This document shows, in pieces, positions 43,989 through 53,565 of a stretch of DNA of 64,000 bases. The translations under genes were made by a program, and so were the position numbers. Below the pieces are notes generated by a model. It was given only the letters and a program-made list of their open reading frames with translations. It made no database searches and was not told where the DNA came from. Numbering within the stretch: the first letter of the stretch is position 1; each line of letters starts with the position of its first letter. This stretch comes from Candidatus Thalassospirochaeta sargassi. GTDB lineage: Bacteria; Spirochaetota; Spirochaetia; UBA9216. The stretch lies in contig JAQQAL010000011.1 of NCBI GenBank assembly GCA_028532855.1, forward strand, positions 1 to 64,000, given 5' to 3'.

Positions 43989-45014
43989 TTAACTATTGTA
44001 TCTGTAATCGTTAAGCTCCCAATAACCCCGTGAACCTTTCAAGGTGGGATTATGCTGAATAAGCATCCAGGCTGTTTTACCGGTTTTGGTGACGGTTGCG
44101 GCTTCAGCACCAGCATTCAAAAGAAGTCTGATGATTTCATCATTCTTAGATGCGTATGCAGCAAACATAAGCGGGGTGAATCCGGATTCGGATACAGCAT
44201 TGACATCTTCCCCGCTAGCTATAAGAAGCTTTAGTACATCAGGGTTAGAATTTACAGCTGCCGCCAGCATCAAAGTGGTATAACCTTCCCGTGAATCGAG
44301 ACTTATATCACCGCCGTGGTCAAGAATAAGCTGCAGCACCGAAGGATTACTGTTATAAAGAGCAGCTATGGTTCCGCTCCCCCATCCTGCAGCGTCACGA
44401 ATATCTGCGGCAGCCCCACTTTCAAGCAACGCCGCTACCTCAGGCAAGCTGCAGTTATTTCGGAGAGAAGCTGTCAGCCGGCTATAGCCCCTCCCACTCC
44501 TTTCTTCAAATGCATCATCCAAACCGAATGGATATGTAATTGAGGGCTCTTCCAGTGACAGAAGCGTCATCAGAATTTCCGGGTTGTGTCCGTACATGTA
44601 CGCAACCATTAATGCAGTAAGGCCATAATCATTTTCCACGTTCACATCAGCTCCGGCAGCAGCAAGAATAACAGGAGTTTCTGTCAGAACTTGATTCATC
44701 GCAGCAGACATTAGAGCGGTCTGTCCGGTTTCCGTTACACTTTCAGGATCAGCACCAGCCTCAAGAAGCCCTTTGATAACATCTAAATCCCCGCAAAGTT
44801 CAGCAGCGAACATCAATGCATTATAGCCTCCGGAAGCAGTGGCGGAAGGGTCGCATCCAGATTCTATAAACTGATTAAGACGGCTTGTATCCATCGTATT
44901 CCATTCCTGAACACTCAAAACCGGCCAGCCGGCCGTATCCCCGGAAAATTCAGTGATAGTACAGGAGAAGAGAAAAAATGCGGAGGCGGCAAACAGTAAG
45001 CATCTTCTTTTCAT
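43989..45014 (-). CDS. Ankyrin-repeat lipoprotein
   Basis: A 341-residue protein with a lipobox near residue 18 (LFAASAFFLFSC). Seven or so ankyrin repeats follow, for example GYNALMFAAELCGDLDVIKG, LLEAGADPESVTETGQTALM, YTTLMLAAAVNSNPDVLKLL and GFTPLMFAAYASKNDEIIRL. The repeats mediate protein binding in the periplasm or at the surface. It is next to another lipoprotein gene on the same strand, separated by a terminator. Confidence 0.87.
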   Translation of the reverse strand: MKRRCLLFAASAFFLFSCTITEFSGDTAGWPVLSVQEWNTMDTSRLNQFIESGCDPSATASGGYNALMFAAELCGDLDVIKGLLEAGADPESVTETGQTALMSAAMNQVLTETPVILAAAGADVNVENDYGLTALMVAYMYGHNPEILMTLLSLEEPSITYPFGLDDAFEERSGRGYSRLTASLRNNCSLPEVAALLESGAAADIRDAAGWGSGTIAALYNSNPSVLQLILDHGGDISLDSREGYTTLMLAAAVNSNPDVLKLLIASGEDVNAVSESGFTPLMFAAYASKNDEIIRLLLNAGAEAATVTKTGKTAWMLIQHNPTLKGSRGYWELNDYRYNS

Positions 45015-45092: not shown

Positions 45093-45746
45093 TTAGAACG
45101 ATACAGCCGCTGCTCTTGCTGTAACGGTGTAGGTTAGGTTCTTTGTTTCATAAACTTTAGATGCAGGCAGAAAAAGGAATGCTTCGGTTTCAGTTCCATT
45201 AAGTTCCTCTTCGATTTCCCATGAGTAATCAGGGAGAAGCAGTGCAACACCGCCCTTTGCGGCAGCTTTCTTCATCAGATCATAGTTTACTGCTTCAAGT
45301 GCTATGTCTTTCGGATCCATCTTTGATACAGAAGCTGCTGTCGCATCGCTGTCTACTGAAACAGCACCGAAAAGTCCGCTTAAAAGTCCACCACTTGCGG
45401 GCATGAAAAGGTCAGCGCCACCTACTGATGAACCTTTGAGGTTACCAACAACACGGGTCCCTGTTACCTCTGTAGTTCCGTCAAGAGCGGTATAGCTGTA
45501 TTTATAGTCATCCATTTCGATAACATAGTCTCCGTTCATCTGAAGCACATAGGTTACTGTTCTTACAGCTTCTACGTTTCCAACAATTTCAACATCGTCC
45601 ATGGAAATGGAGCCAAGTGATATATTTTCGAATGCTGTCATTTCATTGTCACGAAGACTTGTTTTTTCAGAGAAATCTGTTGAAGCACAGGAGAAAAGCA
45701 TTGAGACAAGAGCGATTCCCACAAGAATTTTAAGAGCGTTTTTCAT
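45093..45746 (-). CDS. Lipoprotein of unknown function with shared promoter element
   Basis: A 217-residue protein with a lipobox (LVGIALVSMLFSC, about Cys20). The mature part is soluble and beta-rich (TYVLQMNGDYVIEMDDYKYS, LTYTVTARAAAVSF) with no family I can name. It is divergent from the OmpR-type regulator gene. The upstream element at 45798-45829 is nearly the same as the one before the lipoprotein gene at 50968. Confidence 0.75.
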   Translation of the reverse strand: MKNALKILVGIALVSMLFSCASTDFSEKTSLRDNEMTAFENISLGSISMDDVEIVGNVEAVRTVTYVLQMNGDYVIEMDDYKYSYTALDGTTEVTGTRVVGNLKGSSVGGADLFMPASGGLLSGLFGAVSVDSDATAASVSKMDPKDIALEAVNYDLMKKAAAKGGVALLLPDYSWEIEEELNGTETEAFLFLPASKVYETKNLTYTVTARAAAVSF

Positions 45747-45797
45747 AAGTATTGTCCTTACTGTAAATGTTGATCGAAAACAACGTTTTCAGTTAGA

Positions 45798-45829
45798 TAC
45801 TATTATCTCTATCTTAAATCAATCTTAAA
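45798..45829 (-). promoter_or_regulatory. Direct-repeat regulator site upstream of the 45746 lipoprotein gene
   Basis: On the minus strand TTTAAGA (45829-45823), four bases, TTTAAGA (45818-45812) and then TAGAGAT follow, giving an 11-bp repeat period as expected for OmpR/PhoB-type regulators. The same pattern TTTAATC-N4-TTTAAGA-TAGACAT occurs at 50902-50926 before another lipoprotein gene. The site is also close to the divergent regulator gene at 45895. Confidence 0.6.
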
Positions 45830-45880
45830 ATTTGATTCTTTTTTCTTAGATAATTTAAGGAAAATTTAATCACGAACAAC

Positions 45881-45886
45881 TATAAT
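45881..45886 (+). promoter_or_regulatory. -10 box of the OmpR-type regulator gene
   Basis: TATAAT lies 8 bp before the ATG at 45895 and no ribosome site is present, so the transcript may be leaderless. No clear -35 box is seen; the TTTAAGA repeats further upstream may compensate. Confidence 0.4.
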
Positions 45887-45894
45887 TATTATAA

Positions 45895-46596
45895 ATGAGC
45901 AGCAGTAAAATCCTTGTTATTGAGGATAATGGAAGACTAAGACGTTTTATCGTAACAAGCCTTGAAAAGGAGGGATTCTCGGTTCTTCAGGCCGATTCCG
46001 GTCAAAATGCTTTCAGCATACTGAGAACGGAACTTCCGGATCTGATACTTCTTGATCTGAGGCTTGGGGACTATGATGGCATAGAGATTCTCAAAACAAT
46101 AAGGCGTCAGGATGATGTGCCGGTTATAATTGTTTCTTCAATTAACAATCAGGATATAAAGATTGACGGCTTCAATATCGGCTGCGACGACTACATCACA
46201 AAACCATTTTATATAGATGAATTGATTGTCAGGGTAAAAAGACTCCTGGTACGTTCCGAGAAAACCGGAAATATTAAGGCTCCCATCTTAGAAAAAATAA
46301 AAAGCGGACCTTTTTCAATTGATATAAACACTCAGACCGTAATTAAAGGCAAAAAACCGTTACAGATGAGACAAAAACTATTCAATCTTTTTCTCTATTT
46401 TATAAAGAATCCTGATATTATAATCTCCTACAACCAACTGTATGAAAAGCTCTGGAGTTCATCCGCAGAGTTCAGTGAAAACAGTCTATATGTGCATATC
46501 CGGCATCTGCGGGCCGCGATTGAGGACAACCCGTCAAAACCGGTTTATATCAAGACTGTGAAAAACGCCGGATATATTTATTCGCCAGACGAATAA
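45895..46596 (+). CDS. OmpR/PhoB-family response regulator
   Basis: A 233-residue protein. The receiver (1-120) has VIEDN, Asp54 in LILLDLRLGD and Lys in YITKPFYIDE. The C-terminal winged helix (about 135-233) reads YNQLYEKLWSSSAEFSENSL, YVHIRHLRAAIEDNP and IKTVKNAGYIYSPDE. The hybrid kinase and sensor genes on the opposite strand are obvious partners. Its last 19 bp overlap the end of the sensor gene. Confidence 0.92.
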   Translation: MSSSKILVIEDNGRLRRFIVTSLEKEGFSVLQADSGQNAFSILRTELPDLILLDLRLGDYDGIEILKTIRRQDDVPVIIVSSINNQDIKIDGFNIGCDDYITKPFYIDELIVRVKRLLVRSEKTGNIKAPILEKIKSGPFSIDINTQTVIKGKKPLQMRQKLFNLFLYFIKNPDIIISYNQLYEKLWSSSAEFSENSLYVHIRHLRAAIEDNPSKPVYIKTVKNAGYIYSPDE

Positions 46597-48101
46597 ACCT
46601 CCAGCCGCAGAATACAGTTACCAGAATGGGAAGTCTTAAGCTCAACAGAAAGATCAAACTGCTGCAGCACAGGCTCAATAACACTTAGCTCCGGTTCAGC
46701 TATCCTATCGCGGCTCTGAAATACCGCCTCGATAAACACCAACTCAGGGCTCTTCCCAGAAACAAGCACAATCTCGCTTCCTCTTACTGCATTTTCACCC
46801 GCATAAGCCAGAACATCATTAAGAACAAACATAAACAGTGCTTCATCACCGCTCACTATTAGCGGTACCGATCTCAGCCGGCTGATAATGCTGATACCAT
46901 TCCTGCTGAATGCTGATGCTTTTTCTATCACTAGATCATTTATTATGTCATTAAGGTTGAACATATTATGCATCCGACTATCACCATCTGTTGCGAGAAA
47001 ACTTTTTACGGATTCCCGACACTGCTGAATCCTGATTTTTTCATCACCTGAAGCGGTTAAAGCCGTTCCCACAAGCCTGTCGAGGATATAAATTAAAGCC
47101 TGCAGATACTGAACAATAACTCTCGAACCTGCTATCGATTCTCCGGCTTTGCCATATGTAATCTTTAATACGACAAGGATAAAGGAAAGCATCAGAAATA
47201 TAAGCAAAATCTCGATCACAATAGTTCGACGCAGAACCGAACTAACGTTCTGTCTCAATATTCCTCCGCTCCGCTCTATAATCAGATAACTGTCCCAGAT
47301 CTCCAAGTATTCGCCCCATAGAAGGTTTTCGTCAGTATCAGGCGAAACAACTACCCCCTTAGGGGAGTTCTTCATCCTGACCAGGGTGTCAATAACTGGA
47401 TAAGACCATAAATCATCAACGCTGACAGCTCCGCCCGACATAATTTCCTTATTCTCGGCATAGATGAGCTGACCATCCGGTCTGACCAGATAGAGTCTAA
47501 CATCCCAGTCGTTCTCTAATGCGCGAAATGTTTTATTGAACACTGATGCATCCACACCGCCTCCTGTGACGCCAATATATCGGCCGCTGCTGTCGAAAAC
47601 TGGAATATTTATAAATAGCCCCAGCAAATCGGTTTCAGGGTAGTACCATGAATCAATATTTATGTCCTGTGAATTCTCCCGGTAATGATAATACCAGCCG
47701 TCTCGTTCTCTGTTGAGAGGTGACAACTGAAGCACCCGGCCATCGGTTCCGTAATACATCTCAGTGACGTCGCTAATAAGACTTGCATCCAGTAAGTCGT
47801 TAGCATCACGCACCTTCTTCATGTAACTCGAAAGCTCATCAGGGTCCTGTTCTCCATTCAGAATCCAGTTAACAATATATCCGTCTTCTAGAAGCTGAAA
47901 GCCGGCTTTTTCATACATCATGGCAATGTTGTCAAATATTGCAGCAGCGGCAGTTCCCAGCAGGGGCATTTCCGTATCTCTGGTGTAATTTTTTATTCCG
48001 GCAATTTCATTTATTGCGTCAAGTATAAGCAGAAAGCCGAAAGCAGCAATGATCACTATGGGGAGAATCCAGTATGCCGGCTTCAAGTTACTCATTCCCA
48101 T
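46578..48101 (-). CDS. dCache sensor protein with degenerate kinase-like C-terminus
   Basis: A 507-residue membrane protein. Helix 1 (about 11-31), a double-Cache periplasmic domain (about 35-280; GWYYHYRENSQDINIDSWYY, NIPVFDSSGRYIGVTGGGVD), helix 2 (about 295-318). The C-terminal 180 residues resemble a histidine-kinase ATPase fold (FVLNDVLAYAGENAVRGSEI) but the phospho-His box and glycine motifs are missing. It probably senses a small ligand and signals through the hybrid kinase encoded upstream, with which it overlaps by 14 bp. Confidence 0.8.
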   Translation of the reverse strand: MGMSNLKPAYWILPIVIIAAFGFLLILDAINEIAGIKNYTRDTEMPLLGTAAAAIFDNIAMMYEKAGFQLLEDGYIVNWILNGEQDPDELSSYMKKVRDANDLLDASLISDVTEMYYGTDGRVLQLSPLNRERDGWYYHYRENSQDINIDSWYYPETDLLGLFINIPVFDSSGRYIGVTGGGVDASVFNKTFRALENDWDVRLYLVRPDGQLIYAENKEIMSGGAVSVDDLWSYPVIDTLVRMKNSPKGVVVSPDTDENLLWGEYLEIWDSYLIIERSGGILRQNVSSVLRRTIVIEILLIFLMLSFILVVLKITYGKAGESIAGSRVIVQYLQALIYILDRLVGTALTASGDEKIRIQQCRESVKSFLATDGDSRMHNMFNLNDIINDLVIEKASAFSRNGISIISRLRSVPLIVSGDEALFMFVLNDVLAYAGENAVRGSEIVLVSGKSPELVFIEAVFQSRDRIAEPELSVIEPVLQQFDLSVELKTSHSGNCILRLEVYSSGE

Positions 48102-50724
48102 TATTTACGGCCGCCGGCAAACTGACAACAAAGCACGCTCCATCATCGCCATCACGATAGTAAAGCTCGCCGCCGTTCATGCGCGTTAGCTCATGCGCGA
48201 CATAAAGACCAAGCCCGGTTGAAGATTCCCCTCCGGTAGGGTGGGTGGAAAGACATTGAAAGCGCTCAAAAAGCAGCCCCTGCTCAGAAGGGGCAATTCC
48301 CGGCCCGGCATCCTCAACCTCAACTCGAACTTTTTCACTATATGAAATCCTGATGCTGACACAACTCCCCGTAGGACTGAACTTCAGTCCATTATCTATA
48401 AGATTATATAAAACCCCCCGCATTGCGGAATAATCAGCGTCTATCATCGGTACAGTTTCGGATTTTATCTCAAGGCTTTGGTTTTTTTCAGCAACCTTTC
48501 TGGACAAATCATCAGCCACTGCCCTTACAACATCTTCTATTCTAAACCTCGAGAATCTAAGGGTCTGTCTTCCATCGGAAAGCCTGAACGATATCAGCAC
48601 ATTCTGGACAATTTCATTTATCTCACGACTGGCAGCGTGGAGGTCGTCGGAAACCTCTCTGAATGAGTCAGGTTCGGCGGACAGAGACAAATCCCTAATT
48701 CGATTGAGGAGTAGAGTCAGGGGGGTATTAATATTATGCGTCAGAAAATAAAGAAAGGTATTTTTTTCTTTTTCCGATTTAGCAAGATCATGATTATGCC
48801 GGGCTACATTTTTCAACTTTACAAGTGACTGGATGCGTGCAGCCAGTTCTGAAGAATCAAAGGGTCGCGTTAGAAAATCATTTACACCCGCTCCGTAGCC
48901 CTTTTTCATGAGGTAATCTGCATGATAATTTGCTACCATCAATACTGGAACCTCAAACATGTTATGCTCTTCTCTTATCATTCGGCATAAATTAAATGCA
49001 TTTTCACCCGTGGCAACAGGATCGATAATCAGAACATCAATTCTGCCGGCGTTCACAAGTGACAAAATCTGATAATGTTCAGATATAACCCTAACATCAT
49101 AACCCGTGGAGCGAAGCAGCAGAGCTGTTCTCGCTGAATTTTCAGGATTGATATCATAAATACAGATTGAGGTATCAATCCAGGGTTTTGTTTCCGGTTC
49201 TATTGCGTTACTGAACTTTTCATGAAGTCCGGTTTCCACAGATTCTTCGTCAAGCTCGTTAACCAGAACTTCAATGTCCGACTTTATCATTTGCTTTAGA
49301 TCTTCAGCTTCTGATGAGATCTCTGATAATACTGCAGAAACTTCTGCTGGCTTCTCTTCTCTGCGAATAATTGCCGAAAGTGCTATAATTGAATCTATGG
49401 GCTGAATCAGCCTGTAGCCGAGCTGATGCAGCACGGCGGATTTAAGTTCAGCAACCTCAACCAGTTTCTGATCCATCTCAATTTGATCACTCTCACGCCG
49501 GACATCTACCGATAGAAGATATTTTCTAAAACGCCTGTTATTATAAAACTGCAGCACAATCGAAAAAAGAACAAGGGATAGAATCATCCCGGCAACCTGA
49601 AGAATTGCCGGAGAAATCTGCAGTCGTAAATTATTAGCAGATGCGGTAATATCAACAGCCATGGTAGTCAACCAGGGAATGAATACCAGAACTATATACA
49701 GCATGTCATAATCACCAGCCTTCAAAGACCGGAACACCCCTACCCCAATCAGAACAACCACAGCAGGGACCAATAGATTCAAAAGGTCAGCCGCAAGATA
49801 CGGGGCTCCGAAAAATGAATATATCATCAGCCCAGCCGATACCGAAATAATCACTATTAATAAAAGACCTAGCTTCCGGCAGAAATATTCCTTCATAAGG
49901 CTTCTCGCAAGATTTATGGAAGTAATAATATTAAGACCTATCGAAAAAGCAAAAAGCCAATCTGGATAAACCATCGGATCAATAAGCAGAAGAAGAATGC
50001 GGCTTTGTCGAAGGAAGAAAAAAAACAGCGACAGCATGAAGGCTACAGCCGGAAAGAAGTCGAGTCCATTGAGCAGAAATCCATTTACAGTATTTATCAG
50101 GATGAGGATCATAAATACCCCGCAGAAAAAACCAGCGACTGTGCGTTCCGAAACAGCGGCATCAAGATAACTCTGAAAACTGATTATACCGGGTGCAATA
50201 ACAATACTGCTCGGGCTGAAATATTCCAGAATAAATGTAAGTCGGCTTCCGGCAGGAACTGTGACAGGAAACCCGGGCTTAATATGCCTGTACGGGGAAT
50301 CGCCAAAAGGAACCCTATCGCCATAGCGGTAGAGAGTTACAGCTGCATCTCTTTCAGGAGAGAGCATTTCAATATAGTAATTCCAACTTGTATTATATAG
50401 AATCACATCCGCAGCAGTTTCTGTTTCATTTAACAGCTCAACCTTAAGATATGCATAAGGTGAAGTAGTTCGAATACTCCTGCTCACATCCGCATTCACA
50501 AAACGTTGTTCTGAAGCAAGCCCGAAGACTGATCTACGTTCCTCTGAAAACAGAAGTGAATACTCTGATTTAATTCCAGATACGTGTTCTTCAGTTGAGA
50601 ATCGATTAGAAATATAAATCAGGAGAATAACAAGAAACGACAAAATTATGCCAGTAAACAGGAATAACTGGATTTTCATATCTTTTTGATTATCAAAGCG
50701 ATTGCTGACTGTACCTTGGTGCAT
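48088..50724 (-). CDS. 7TMR-DISM hybrid histidine kinase with internal receiver
   Basis: An 878-residue protein. After an N-terminal helix a DISM extracellular beta domain (about 60-175) precedes seven helices (about 180-390), then a coiled-coil. A receiver-like domain follows (about 520-640; Asp568 in VLIIDPVATG, FLTRPFDSSEL). HisKA has His663 in FLYFLTHNINTPL, and HATPase has YNLIDNGLKFSP, DAGPGIAPSE and GLGLYVAHEL. Phosphorelay to the OmpR-type regulator nearby is likely. The receiver sits before the kinase core, an uncommon order. The start may be 50724 or Met16; neither has a strong ribosome site. Confidence 0.88.
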   Translation of the reverse strand: MHQGTVSNRFDNQKDMKIQLFLFTGIILSFLVILLIYISNRFSTEEHVSGIKSEYSLLFSEERRSVFGLASEQRFVNADVSRSIRTTSPYAYLKVELLNETETAADVILYNTSWNYYIEMLSPERDAAVTLYRYGDRVPFGDSPYRHIKPGFPVTVPAGSRLTFILEYFSPSSIVIAPGIISFQSYLDAAVSERTVAGFFCGVFMILILINTVNGFLLNGLDFFPAVAFMLSLFFFFLRQSRILLLLIDPMVYPDWLFAFSIGLNIITSINLARSLMKEYFCRKLGLLLIVIISVSAGLMIYSFFGAPYLAADLLNLLVPAVVVLIGVGVFRSLKAGDYDMLYIVLVFIPWLTTMAVDITASANNLRLQISPAILQVAGMILSLVLFSIVLQFYNNRRFRKYLLSVDVRRESDQIEMDQKLVEVAELKSAVLHQLGYRLIQPIDSIIALSAIIRREEKPAEVSAVLSEISSEAEDLKQMIKSDIEVLVNELDEESVETGLHEKFSNAIEPETKPWIDTSICIYDINPENSARTALLLRSTGYDVRVISEHYQILSLVNAGRIDVLIIDPVATGENAFNLCRMIREEHNMFEVPVLMVANYHADYLMKKGYGAGVNDFLTRPFDSSELAARIQSLVKLKNVARHNHDLAKSEKEKNTFLYFLTHNINTPLTLLLNRIRDLSLSAEPDSFREVSDDLHAASREINEIVQNVLISFRLSDGRQTLRFSRFRIEDVVRAVADDLSRKVAEKNQSLEIKSETVPMIDADYSAMRGVLYNLIDNGLKFSPTGSCVSIRISYSEKVRVEVEDAGPGIAPSEQGLLFERFQCLSTHPTGGESSTGLGLYVAHELTRMNGGELYYRDGDDGACFVVSLPAAVNNGNE

Positions 50725-50901
50725 ATCCTATTATAGTAAAAATCAATTTACCTTATCAATTATATAAGATAAATAAAAATACATGGTAGTCATAAAGAGA
50801 AACCGCGATACTTGATTGATGTTTTAACTATAGGATGGGATTATTGCAAATCCGATATTCTGTTCAGTCCAGCTTGAACTGATAGCTGATTATCTTCAGG
50901 C

Positions 50902-50929
50902 TTTAATCTTAATTTAAGATAGACATCAT
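50902..50929 (+). promoter_or_regulatory. Direct-repeat regulator site upstream of the 50968 lipoprotein gene
   Basis: TTTAATC (50902-50908), four bases, TTTAAGA (50913-50919) and then TAGACAT repeat the element found before the 45746 gene, in the same orientation relative to the gene and at a similar distance (49 versus 66 bp to the start codon). Confidence 0.6.
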
Positions 50930-50967
50930 ATCCTAAGAGTAAATCTTATTATTCAACAGGAGAAAAT

Positions 50968-51627
50968 ATGAACAAAAAAATGATTACAACGATTGTTCTT
51001 TTTTCATTTCTTGTTCTTCTATATTTCAACGGGTGTGATTTCACCAATGAAATGGGTAGGCGAGAAATGGTAATTACGAACTATAGTGCCAATGAGATTA
51101 CAAGCATAGAATTTAACGGTCGAGAACTTGTTTACTCGGACGGATCATCTTACACACTGTCTAGTGAAGAAGAGCTTACTATGAGCCTTGAGTTTATTGC
51201 TGAAGGCAGCTACAGCATGACGGCAACCGATTCCAGCGGGGAAACCGATACCGAAACTATCAAAATCGATGACGAAGGCGGAGAGGTTAATTTCTTTGAA
51301 ATCGAAACCACAATCTCAATAACTAATAACACCGGCAAAGAGGTTATCTGCTTTGCCCTAACCGATACCTACTCCGGTGAAAATGTTGAAGAGATAAGCG
51401 GTATAGAATACTGGATAGGAGATCTCACAAATATTTTCTTTCCAATATCTAATGGTTCAACTGAGACTGCTACTGAGGTTGACAGTAATGGATTTGTCGA
51501 TAAGAGCCTTTATGTGTATGCCTGGATCTATGATTCAGATACCGAGGAAGGAGAATACGTCAATCAGGGTACGATGTCCGTTACCTCCGGCGAGACAAAC
51601 ACTTTTACAGCAACAGTAGGGAACTAG
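50968..51627 (+). CDS. Lipoprotein of unknown function, beta-rich
   Basis: A 219-residue protein with lipobox LLYFNGC (Cys23). The mature part contains two similar beta-rich halves (MVITNYSANEITSIEFNGRE and TISITNNTGKEVICFALTDT), suggesting an internal repeat of a small Ig-like or sensor fold. I cannot name a family. GGAGAA precedes the ATG. Co-transcribed with the lipoprotein at 51637. Confidence 0.75.
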   Translation: MNKKMITTIVLFSFLVLLYFNGCDFTNEMGRREMVITNYSANEITSIEFNGRELVYSDGSSYTLSSEEELTMSLEFIAEGSYSMTATDSSGETDTETIKIDDEGGEVNFFEIETTISITNNTGKEVICFALTDTYSGENVEEISGIEYWIGDLTNIFFPISNGSTETATEVDSNGFVDKSLYVYAWIYDSDTEEGEYVNQGTMSVTSGETNTFTATVGN

Positions 51628-51636
51628 GAGATAAAA

Positions 51637-52095
51637 ATGAAAAGAAATATAACAATTGCACTGATATTAGTTACTATGGCATCTGCTTTCACCTCCTGCT
51701 CTGGCGCATATCTGGGTGTATGGAGCTATGTCGGCTCTACCGATGATCAAGACCGGTGGATTGAGTTTACCGAAGAGGGTGAATTTAATTACGTTATTAT
51801 GGAAGCCCCCAATTTCACTGATGTTGAGTACTATTACTACGGAACTTATACCGTTAGTAAAAAGGTTATCACTCTTGAATGCGAGAAGGTAAGCGACGGT
51901 TCACAGAGTGAGGAGGACGACGATATCAACCTTTACGAATGGACCGAAACCGATGAGGAGATAGAGATAACCTATGCAAAAAGCGGTAGCAATCTGGTTT
52001 TAACCTTTGAGGACGGTTCGGAAATAACCCTTACCGAAGCAGAGGATAATGTATTCTCGGATACACGTTCTATAGCAGAGTTCTTCGGCATATAA
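51637..52095 (+). CDS. Lipocalin-like small lipoprotein
   Basis: A 152-residue protein with a lipobox (LVTMASAFTSC). The pattern LGVWSYVGSTDDQDRWIEFT, EEGEFNYVIMEAPNFTDVEY and YYYGTYTVSKKVITLEC resembles small lipocalin-like or YxeF-type beta-barrels with repeated strand-turn units. Very acidic mature part. Nine bp after the previous lipoprotein, so one operon. Confidence 0.7.
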   Translation: MKRNITIALILVTMASAFTSCSGAYLGVWSYVGSTDDQDRWIEFTEEGEFNYVIMEAPNFTDVEYYYYGTYTVSKKVITLECEKVSDGSQSEEDDDINLYEWTETDEEIEITYAKSGSNLVLTFEDGSEITLTEAEDNVFSDTRSIAEFFGI

Positions 52096-52755: not shown

Positions 52756-53565
52756 TTAACTTGCCATAAGAGCCTTTTCAAAATCAACAGGTGACCGCCG
52801 ATTTAAGTGCTCATGCCTTCTTTTTCTATTATAAAATACTTCGATATAATCAAAAATATCATTTCGAGCTTCTTCCCGAGTTAGATATTTTCTTCTTCGA
52901 GTTCGTTCCTTTTTCAGACTGTTGAAAAAAGATTCAACAGCAGCGTTGTCATAGCAGTTCCCACGGCGACTCATACTCTGAATGAAATTGTTATTTTTAC
53001 AGAAACGATTCCAGTCATCGCTTGAATATTGAGTTCCCTGATCTGAATGAATAATAACTTTGTTTTTAGGACGACGTCTCCAGAATGCTGAAAGCAGAGC
53101 CTGAACAACAATATCTCGGTGAAGAGTATTCTGCATCGACCATCCAACAATTCTTCGAGAACACAAATCCATTACTACCGCCAGATATAACCAGCCTTCA
53201 CTGGTAGGTATATAGGTAATATCTGTCACCCATGCAACATCTATTTCATCATAGCTAAAATTCTGTTGAAGATGATTCTCATGCGTAACTGATGGCTTGC
53301 CATACTTGTAGCGCCGTCTTTTTAAGCCAATTTCAGCCTGAATCTTATTCTCACGCATTATTCGCGCAACACGATTTAATCCGCAAACCTCTCCAGATTC
53401 ACGTAGGTCTTCAAATATTCTGGGGCTGCCGTAGACTTTATCACTCTCATCCCAAAAATGTTTTATTTGCTTGAGAATACGCTCGTCTTCTATCTGGCGA
53501 GCCGACTTCGGTTTATTCAACCAGGCATAGAAACCGCTGCGATGAACTTTCAGAACTCGACACAT
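52756..53565 (-). CDS. IS3-family transposase OrfB (DDE integrase core)
   Basis: 269 residues from the first Met. Catalytic residues are in VAWVTDITYIPT (first Asp), IIHSDQGTQYSS (second Asp) and AAVESFFNSLKKE (Glu). MCRVLKVHRSGFYAWLNKP is the usual OrfB N-terminus. The frame extends upstream to about 53650, where a slippery A7-G run lets ribosomes shift -1 from OrfA, giving the OrfAB transposase. The chain is complete, so the IS could be active. Confidence 0.9.
   Translation of the reverse strand: MCRVLKVHRSGFYAWLNKPKSARQIEDERILKQIKHFWDESDKVYGSPRIFEDLRESGEVCGLNRVARIMRENKIQAEIGLKRRRYKYGKPSVTHENHLQQNFSYDEIDVAWVTDITYIPTSEGWLYLAVVMDLCSRRIVGWSMQNTLHRDIVVQALLSAFWRRRPKNKVIIHSDQGTQYSSDDWNRFCKNNNFIQSMSRRGNCYDNAAVESFFNSLKKERTRRRKYLTREEARNDIFDYIEVFYNRKRRHEHLNRRSPVDFEKALMAS

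Follow-up and report, generated by a model that had tools for sequence, protein, structure and literature searches.

A conserved TTTAAK direct repeat marks a predicted lipoprotein regulon tied to an OmpR-type regulator in mostly uncultured spirochaetes

Introduction

Spirochaete surfaces are rich in lipoproteins, and the literature we found on how their transcription is controlled deals mostly with Borrelia (RpoN-RpoS). The 64,000-nucleotide stretch of Candidatus Thalassospirochaeta sargassi DNA analysed here (the window) contains a block in which a response regulator, a dCache sensor protein and a hybrid histidine kinase lie between lipoprotein genes. A first-pass annotation, made from the sequence alone, had noticed a similar repeated element before the lipoprotein genes at both ends of this block, and proposed a small regulon in which envelope signals control surface lipoproteins. 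Is this repeat a genuine control site, and is it the regulator of the block that reads it? We addressed these questions by comparing the window with other spirochaete genomes.

Results

A regulator and two sensor proteins between lipoprotein genes

The block and its flanks hold the following genes:

43989-45014, minus strand: ankyrin-repeat lipoprotein (Pfam Ank)
45093-45746, minus strand: lipoprotein A, 217 aa, lipobox LFSC, no Pfam match
45895-46596, plus strand: OmpR/PhoB-family response regulator (Response_reg and Trans_reg_C)
46578-48101, minus strand: dCache sensor protein with a degenerate histidine-kinase-like C-terminal domain
48088-50724, minus strand: hybrid histidine kinase (7TMR-DISMED2, 7TM, receiver, HisKA, HATPase_c)
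50968-51627, plus strand: lipoprotein B, 219 aa, lipobox FNGC
51637-52095, plus strand: lipoprotein C, 152 aa, lipobox FTSC, in an operon with lipoprotein B

Pfam searches confirmed the three central genes as an OmpR-type regulator, a dCache protein and a 7TMR-DISM hybrid kinase. The regulator has an N-terminal receiver (PF00072, E=7e-27) and a C-terminal winged helix (PF00486, E=6e-19), both above the gathering score. Its receiver is intact, with E10, D11, D54 and K103 invariant in five orthologues, and the nearest solved DNA-binding domain is that of PhoB. The DISMED2, HisKA and HATPase_c domains of the hybrid kinase score above the Pfam cut-off, and its 7TM domain reaches 23.6 bits against a cut-off of 29. 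The H-box (His663) and the N and G boxes of this kinase are invariant in five orthologues, and its true start may be the in-frame ATG at 50679. The receiver of the hybrid kinase may itself be degenerate: four of five orthologues have Arg (LTRPF) where Lys is usual.

The dCache protein, whose gene overlaps the regulator gene tail to tail, matches dCache_1 with E=5e-7 and 30 bits, below the Pfam curated cut-off of 45. Its C-terminus resembles the CA domain of VanSA in an AlphaFold model (pLDDT 77; Foldseek TMt 0.82). Pfam HisKA and HATPase gave no match to the protein even at E=5, and neither a catalytic His nor any other catalytic residue is conserved among orthologues in the C-terminal half. 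As modelled, this half would resemble a CA domain only in fold, with neither the phospho-acceptor His nor the N and G boxes of an active kinase. The dCache half is far better conserved than the kinase-like half. The relatives G001, G003, L158, L159 and L160 all keep the order regulator-dCache-kinase. G002 keeps it as far as its contig reaches, and G006 and G051 have a more diverged version.

Lipoproteins A, B and C are all positive in a crude lipobox test, which calls a signal peptide with a lipobox Cys. Lipoprotein C shows a weak, possible likeness to lipocalins, and an rve-type transposase ORF (52756-53565) lies downstream of the B-C operon. Orthologues of lipoprotein A are found at the same place in G001 and G002 (54% and 45-46% identity), with the ankyrin lipoprotein behind them there too, and in the window these two genes probably form one operon. 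A structure model of lipoprotein A was too poor for use (pLDDT 52.5). Searches of the four same-genus genomes did not turn up the B-C operon, but G006 has orthologues of it at another place; the operon may have been moved in.

Three promoters share one layout

Both elements of the first-pass annotation are present, TTTAAGATTGATTTAAGATAGAGAT on the minus strand from 45829 and TTTAATCTTAATTTAAGATAGACAT from 50902, and a third, which had been overlooked, lies before the OmpR-type regulator gene:

45797-45829, minus strand: site 1, TTTAAGATTGATTTAAG-N10-TAGTAT, in the promoter of lipoprotein A and probably serving also the ankyrin lipoprotein behind it
50902-50934, plus strand: site 2, TTTAATCTTAATTTAAG-N10-TATCCT, in the promoter of the lipoprotein B-C operon
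45854-45886, plus strand: site 3, TTTAAGGAAAATTTAAT-N10-TATAAT, with the repeat at 45854-45870, in the regulator gene promoter

The core of the element is TTTAAK-N5-TTTAAK, a direct repeat with an 11-bp period, and the full pattern is TTTAAK-N5-TTTAAK-N10-TANNNT. The repeat stands exactly 10 bp from the −10 hexamer (TAGTAT, TATAAT or TATCCT) at all three sites, and these promoters show nothing resembling a −35 hexamer at 16-18 bp upstream of the −10. The TAGAGAT/TAGACAT tail that had been taken as part of the element is not conserved in relatives, and was rejected as a site component for that reason.

Exact copies of the core repeat number 17 in the 3.84-Mb genome, three of them inside the 5.2-kb block, a clustering with a Poisson P of ~2e-6 for a pattern chosen after two of the three had already been seen. 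None of the remaining 14 has the −10 context; they fall within reading frames or have no suitable gene behind them. A genome-wide search for the element had been proposed at first pass; across 3.8 Mb the full pattern has exactly three perfect matches, which are the three sites of the block, and the reversed control has none. Because the −10 part of the pattern was added after the window sites had been inspected, an independent test can come from relatives only. At one mismatch the full pattern is no commoner than its reversed control, and one to two mismatches add mostly noise, so the edges of the regulon cannot be drawn from such sites.

The element is kept at the regulator locus in related species

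In sister species whose regulators are 63-73% identical to that of the window, the element is kept at the regulator locus, and the repeat alone is kept down to 44-45% identity. G001 and G002, which belong to the same genus (regulator 72-73% and 68% identical), have perfect elements at both the regulator and the lipoprotein A promoters. G003 has a perfect element before the divergent gene, which there encodes a different secreted protein, and its regulator site is a 10-bp-period form. A search with variant spacings (N4-6, N9-11) yielded only this form, the sites checked including no additional lipoprotein target. The GC-rich genome G060 (record L159; regulator 56% identical) contains two exact repeats in 3.8 Mb, at the regulator and divergent promoters only. 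G006 and G051 (44-45%) keep the repeat before the regulator, and G061 has a degenerate NTTAAK form there, GTTAAG-N5-ATTAAT-N10-TATACT. No such site was found near the regulator orthologues (~40%) of Treponema berlinense and two Treponema MAGs. In a Treponema MAG (L162:5965-8810) the regulator orthologue is followed directly by the gene of a 664-aa lipoprotein, with no visible TTTAAK repeat.

The −10 hexamer of the regulator promoter lies 8 nt before the ATG in the window (45881-45895) and 7, 6 and 7 nt before it in G001, G002 and G003. A spacing this short predicts a leaderless or nearly leaderless regulator mRNA in these four species; in G060 the hexamer is less close to the ATG.

Perfect sites lie mostly before lipoprotein genes

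Genomes that carry the regulator contain 21 perfect matches to the full pattern against three to the reversed control (~34 Mb), whereas the 32 spirochaete genomes in which no regulator orthologue was detected contain two against three (~119 Mb). Among 20 distinct perfect sites, three precede the regulator, 13 lipoprotein genes and two genes for signal-peptide proteins; one has no clear ORF and one lies at a contig end. A possible second site at L158:12079, which precedes no lipoprotein, was left uncounted.

The unlinked set was defined as the sites in relatives that remain once the window and the inherited regulator/lipoprotein A block are removed (n=10). Eight of the ten stand before lipoprotein genes as called by the crude lipobox test, one before a signal-peptide protein and one before no ORF. 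Against a crude background of ~10% lipoproteins, eight in ten has a hand-computed binomial P of ~3e-7. The first-pass annotation held that its proposal would fall if the element were absent from other regulated genes and not bound by the regulator; in relatives the element was found at these unlinked sites.

Several families recur among the targets. The orthologue of lipoprotein B in G006, a member of another genus, is unlinked and has its own perfect site, and the lipoprotein C orthologue adjoins it. An FTKGG TPR-like lipoprotein has a site in G001 and, with one mismatch each, in G003, G006 and G062. A lipocalin/NlpE-like lipoprotein has a site in G002 and a one-mismatch site in G001, and a PKD-like lipoprotein has a site in G003 and a one-mismatch site in the window genome, G000. 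Ricin-lectin-like secreted proteins have a site in G002, G006 and G060, with one mismatch in the last two or more. The perfect G001 site without a clear ORF downstream (C2:10614; L142:3115-3147) faces a lipoprotein promoter. It may be a chance match or, like CiaR boxes, direct transcription of a small RNA.

Judged by its conservation, the repeat is a real control site type before lipoprotein genes in this mostly uncultured group of spirochaetes. The small lipoprotein regulon proposed at first pass is borne out by footprinting, by unlinked sites in other genomes and by a clean control in genomes without a detected orthologue, and these comparisons strongly support a regulon of exported lipoproteins tied to the block regulator. 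The lipoprotein targets stood; the predicted target that had been omitted is the regulator itself.

Discussion

We think it likely that a dimer of the block regulator, fed by the linked kinase, binds the tandem half-sites and activates its own gene together with a small set of exported lipoproteins. The two half-sites, one helical turn apart, would accommodate a dimer of the OmpR/PhoB-family regulator (45895-46596), which would cover about −39 to −23 in place of a −35 box, leaving 10 bp to the −10 hexamer (−12 to −7). The linked 7TMR-DISM hybrid kinase would phosphorylate the regulator, a step that the dCache protein with its degenerate kinase domain probably modulates. Once phosphorylated, the regulator most likely switches on its own gene. 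Its predicted targets in the window genome are lipoprotein A with the ankyrin protein, and lipoproteins B-C; in relatives they would be TPR-like, lipocalin/NlpE-like, PKD-like and ricin-lectin-like exported proteins.

PhoB-type activated promoters have tandem half-sites of ~11 bp in place of a −35 box, and activator-dependent promoters typically have no visible −35 hexamer. Activation is favoured here because the layout matches that of PhoB-type and CiaR promoters (PMC3091779) and a −35-like hexamer is absent. From these patterns we infer binding by the block regulator, activation over repression, the pairing with the kinase and an envelope signal. More tentatively, the whole could be an envelope-response regulon made up almost wholly of lipoproteins, with a three-part sensor (7TMR-DISM hybrid kinase, kinase-dead dCache partner and OmpR-type regulator), a leaderless, self-activated regulator mRNA, and targets that are rebuilt between species while the geometry of the site stays fixed.

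The same sites and regulator might instead act mainly in repression, with a dimer over the −35 region blocking RNA polymerase until a signal releases it. The site does overlap the −35 region, and autoregulated regulators are often repressors. We nevertheless regard this as unlikely, since three promoters with no visible −35-like hexamer would be expected to have low basal activity, CiaR promoters, whose geometry is identical, show strong activation (PMC3091779), and different species keep 10 bp between repeat and −10, which fits contact with RNA polymerase. It is less likely still that the sites belong to another OmpR-family regulator and adjoin this one by chance or through inheritance of the block. 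Different OmpR-family proteins do bind such a box in other bacteria (PMC3091779, PMC5253667, PMC10927774), and the genome offers at least 47 matches to the regulator query, but the site lies in the block regulator's own promoter in several species, and the 32 genomes without a detected orthologue stay at background despite their other OmpR-type regulators. That the elements are chance A+T-rich repeats near promoters with no common regulator, as the lack of excess at one or two mismatches might suggest, is scarcely credible given the excess of exact sites over controls in regulator-bearing genomes (21 against 3), the persistence of the element across diverged species, a GC-rich one among them, and the lipoprotein bias, which extends to unlinked targets in relatives.

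Activation by the block regulator, as we prefer to read these sites, would provide a concrete, testable lipoprotein regulon in free-living relatives, one for which regulator, site and kinase are all predicted. Several lipoprotein families of no known role would thereby gain a common predicted control.

How much of this is new can be judged against known systems. The first-pass annotation did not recognise the system as described. That stands for the regulon, of which we found no description in literature searches with small reach into subscription papers, and fails for the promoter grammar, which is that of the streptococcal CiaR promoters, TTTAAG-N5-TTTAAG-N10-TATAAT, later given as NTTAAG-N5-TTTAAG, which are activated (PMC3091779). 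CiaRH likewise combines an OmpR-type regulator, a TTTAAG-N5-TTTAAG box and 10 bp to a TATAAT-type −10 (PMC3091779), and all three window sites have this arrangement, with T for G in one half-site of two of them. The recognition helix differs, however, reading VVEVYVSKVRKKL in CiaR and SLYVHIRHLRAAI in the window regulator when compared by eye; the linked kinase here is a 7TMR-DISM hybrid kinase with a dCache protein rather than CiaH; and the targets here are lipoproteins, whereas those of CiaR include small RNAs. By its predicted recognition helix or its linked kinase, the window regulator is not CiaR.

HP1043/HsrA of Helicobacter pylori, also of the OmpR/PhoB family, uses TTTAAG direct repeats that are separated by 5 bp and lie one helical turn apart (PMC5253667). 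It is described as an essential orphan with a degenerate receiver (PMC8345958), whereas in the window regulator the receiver is intact and a kinase is linked. The PmrA box of Acinetobacter baumannii is TTTAAGNNNNNTTTAAG, with support from EMSA and calorimetry (PMC10927774); PmrA controls polymyxin-resistance genes such as pmrC and naxD, and its sensor and targets are unrelated to those here. PhoB/OmpR-type activators at large have Trans_reg_C in common with the window regulator and differ from it in half-site sequence and regulon. As far as the literature we found goes, the type of DNA site was already known, and what is new is the regulon, the lineage and the sensor module, which add another instance of distinct OmpR-family regulators sharing the TTTAAG-N5-TTTAAG-N10 promoter grammar.
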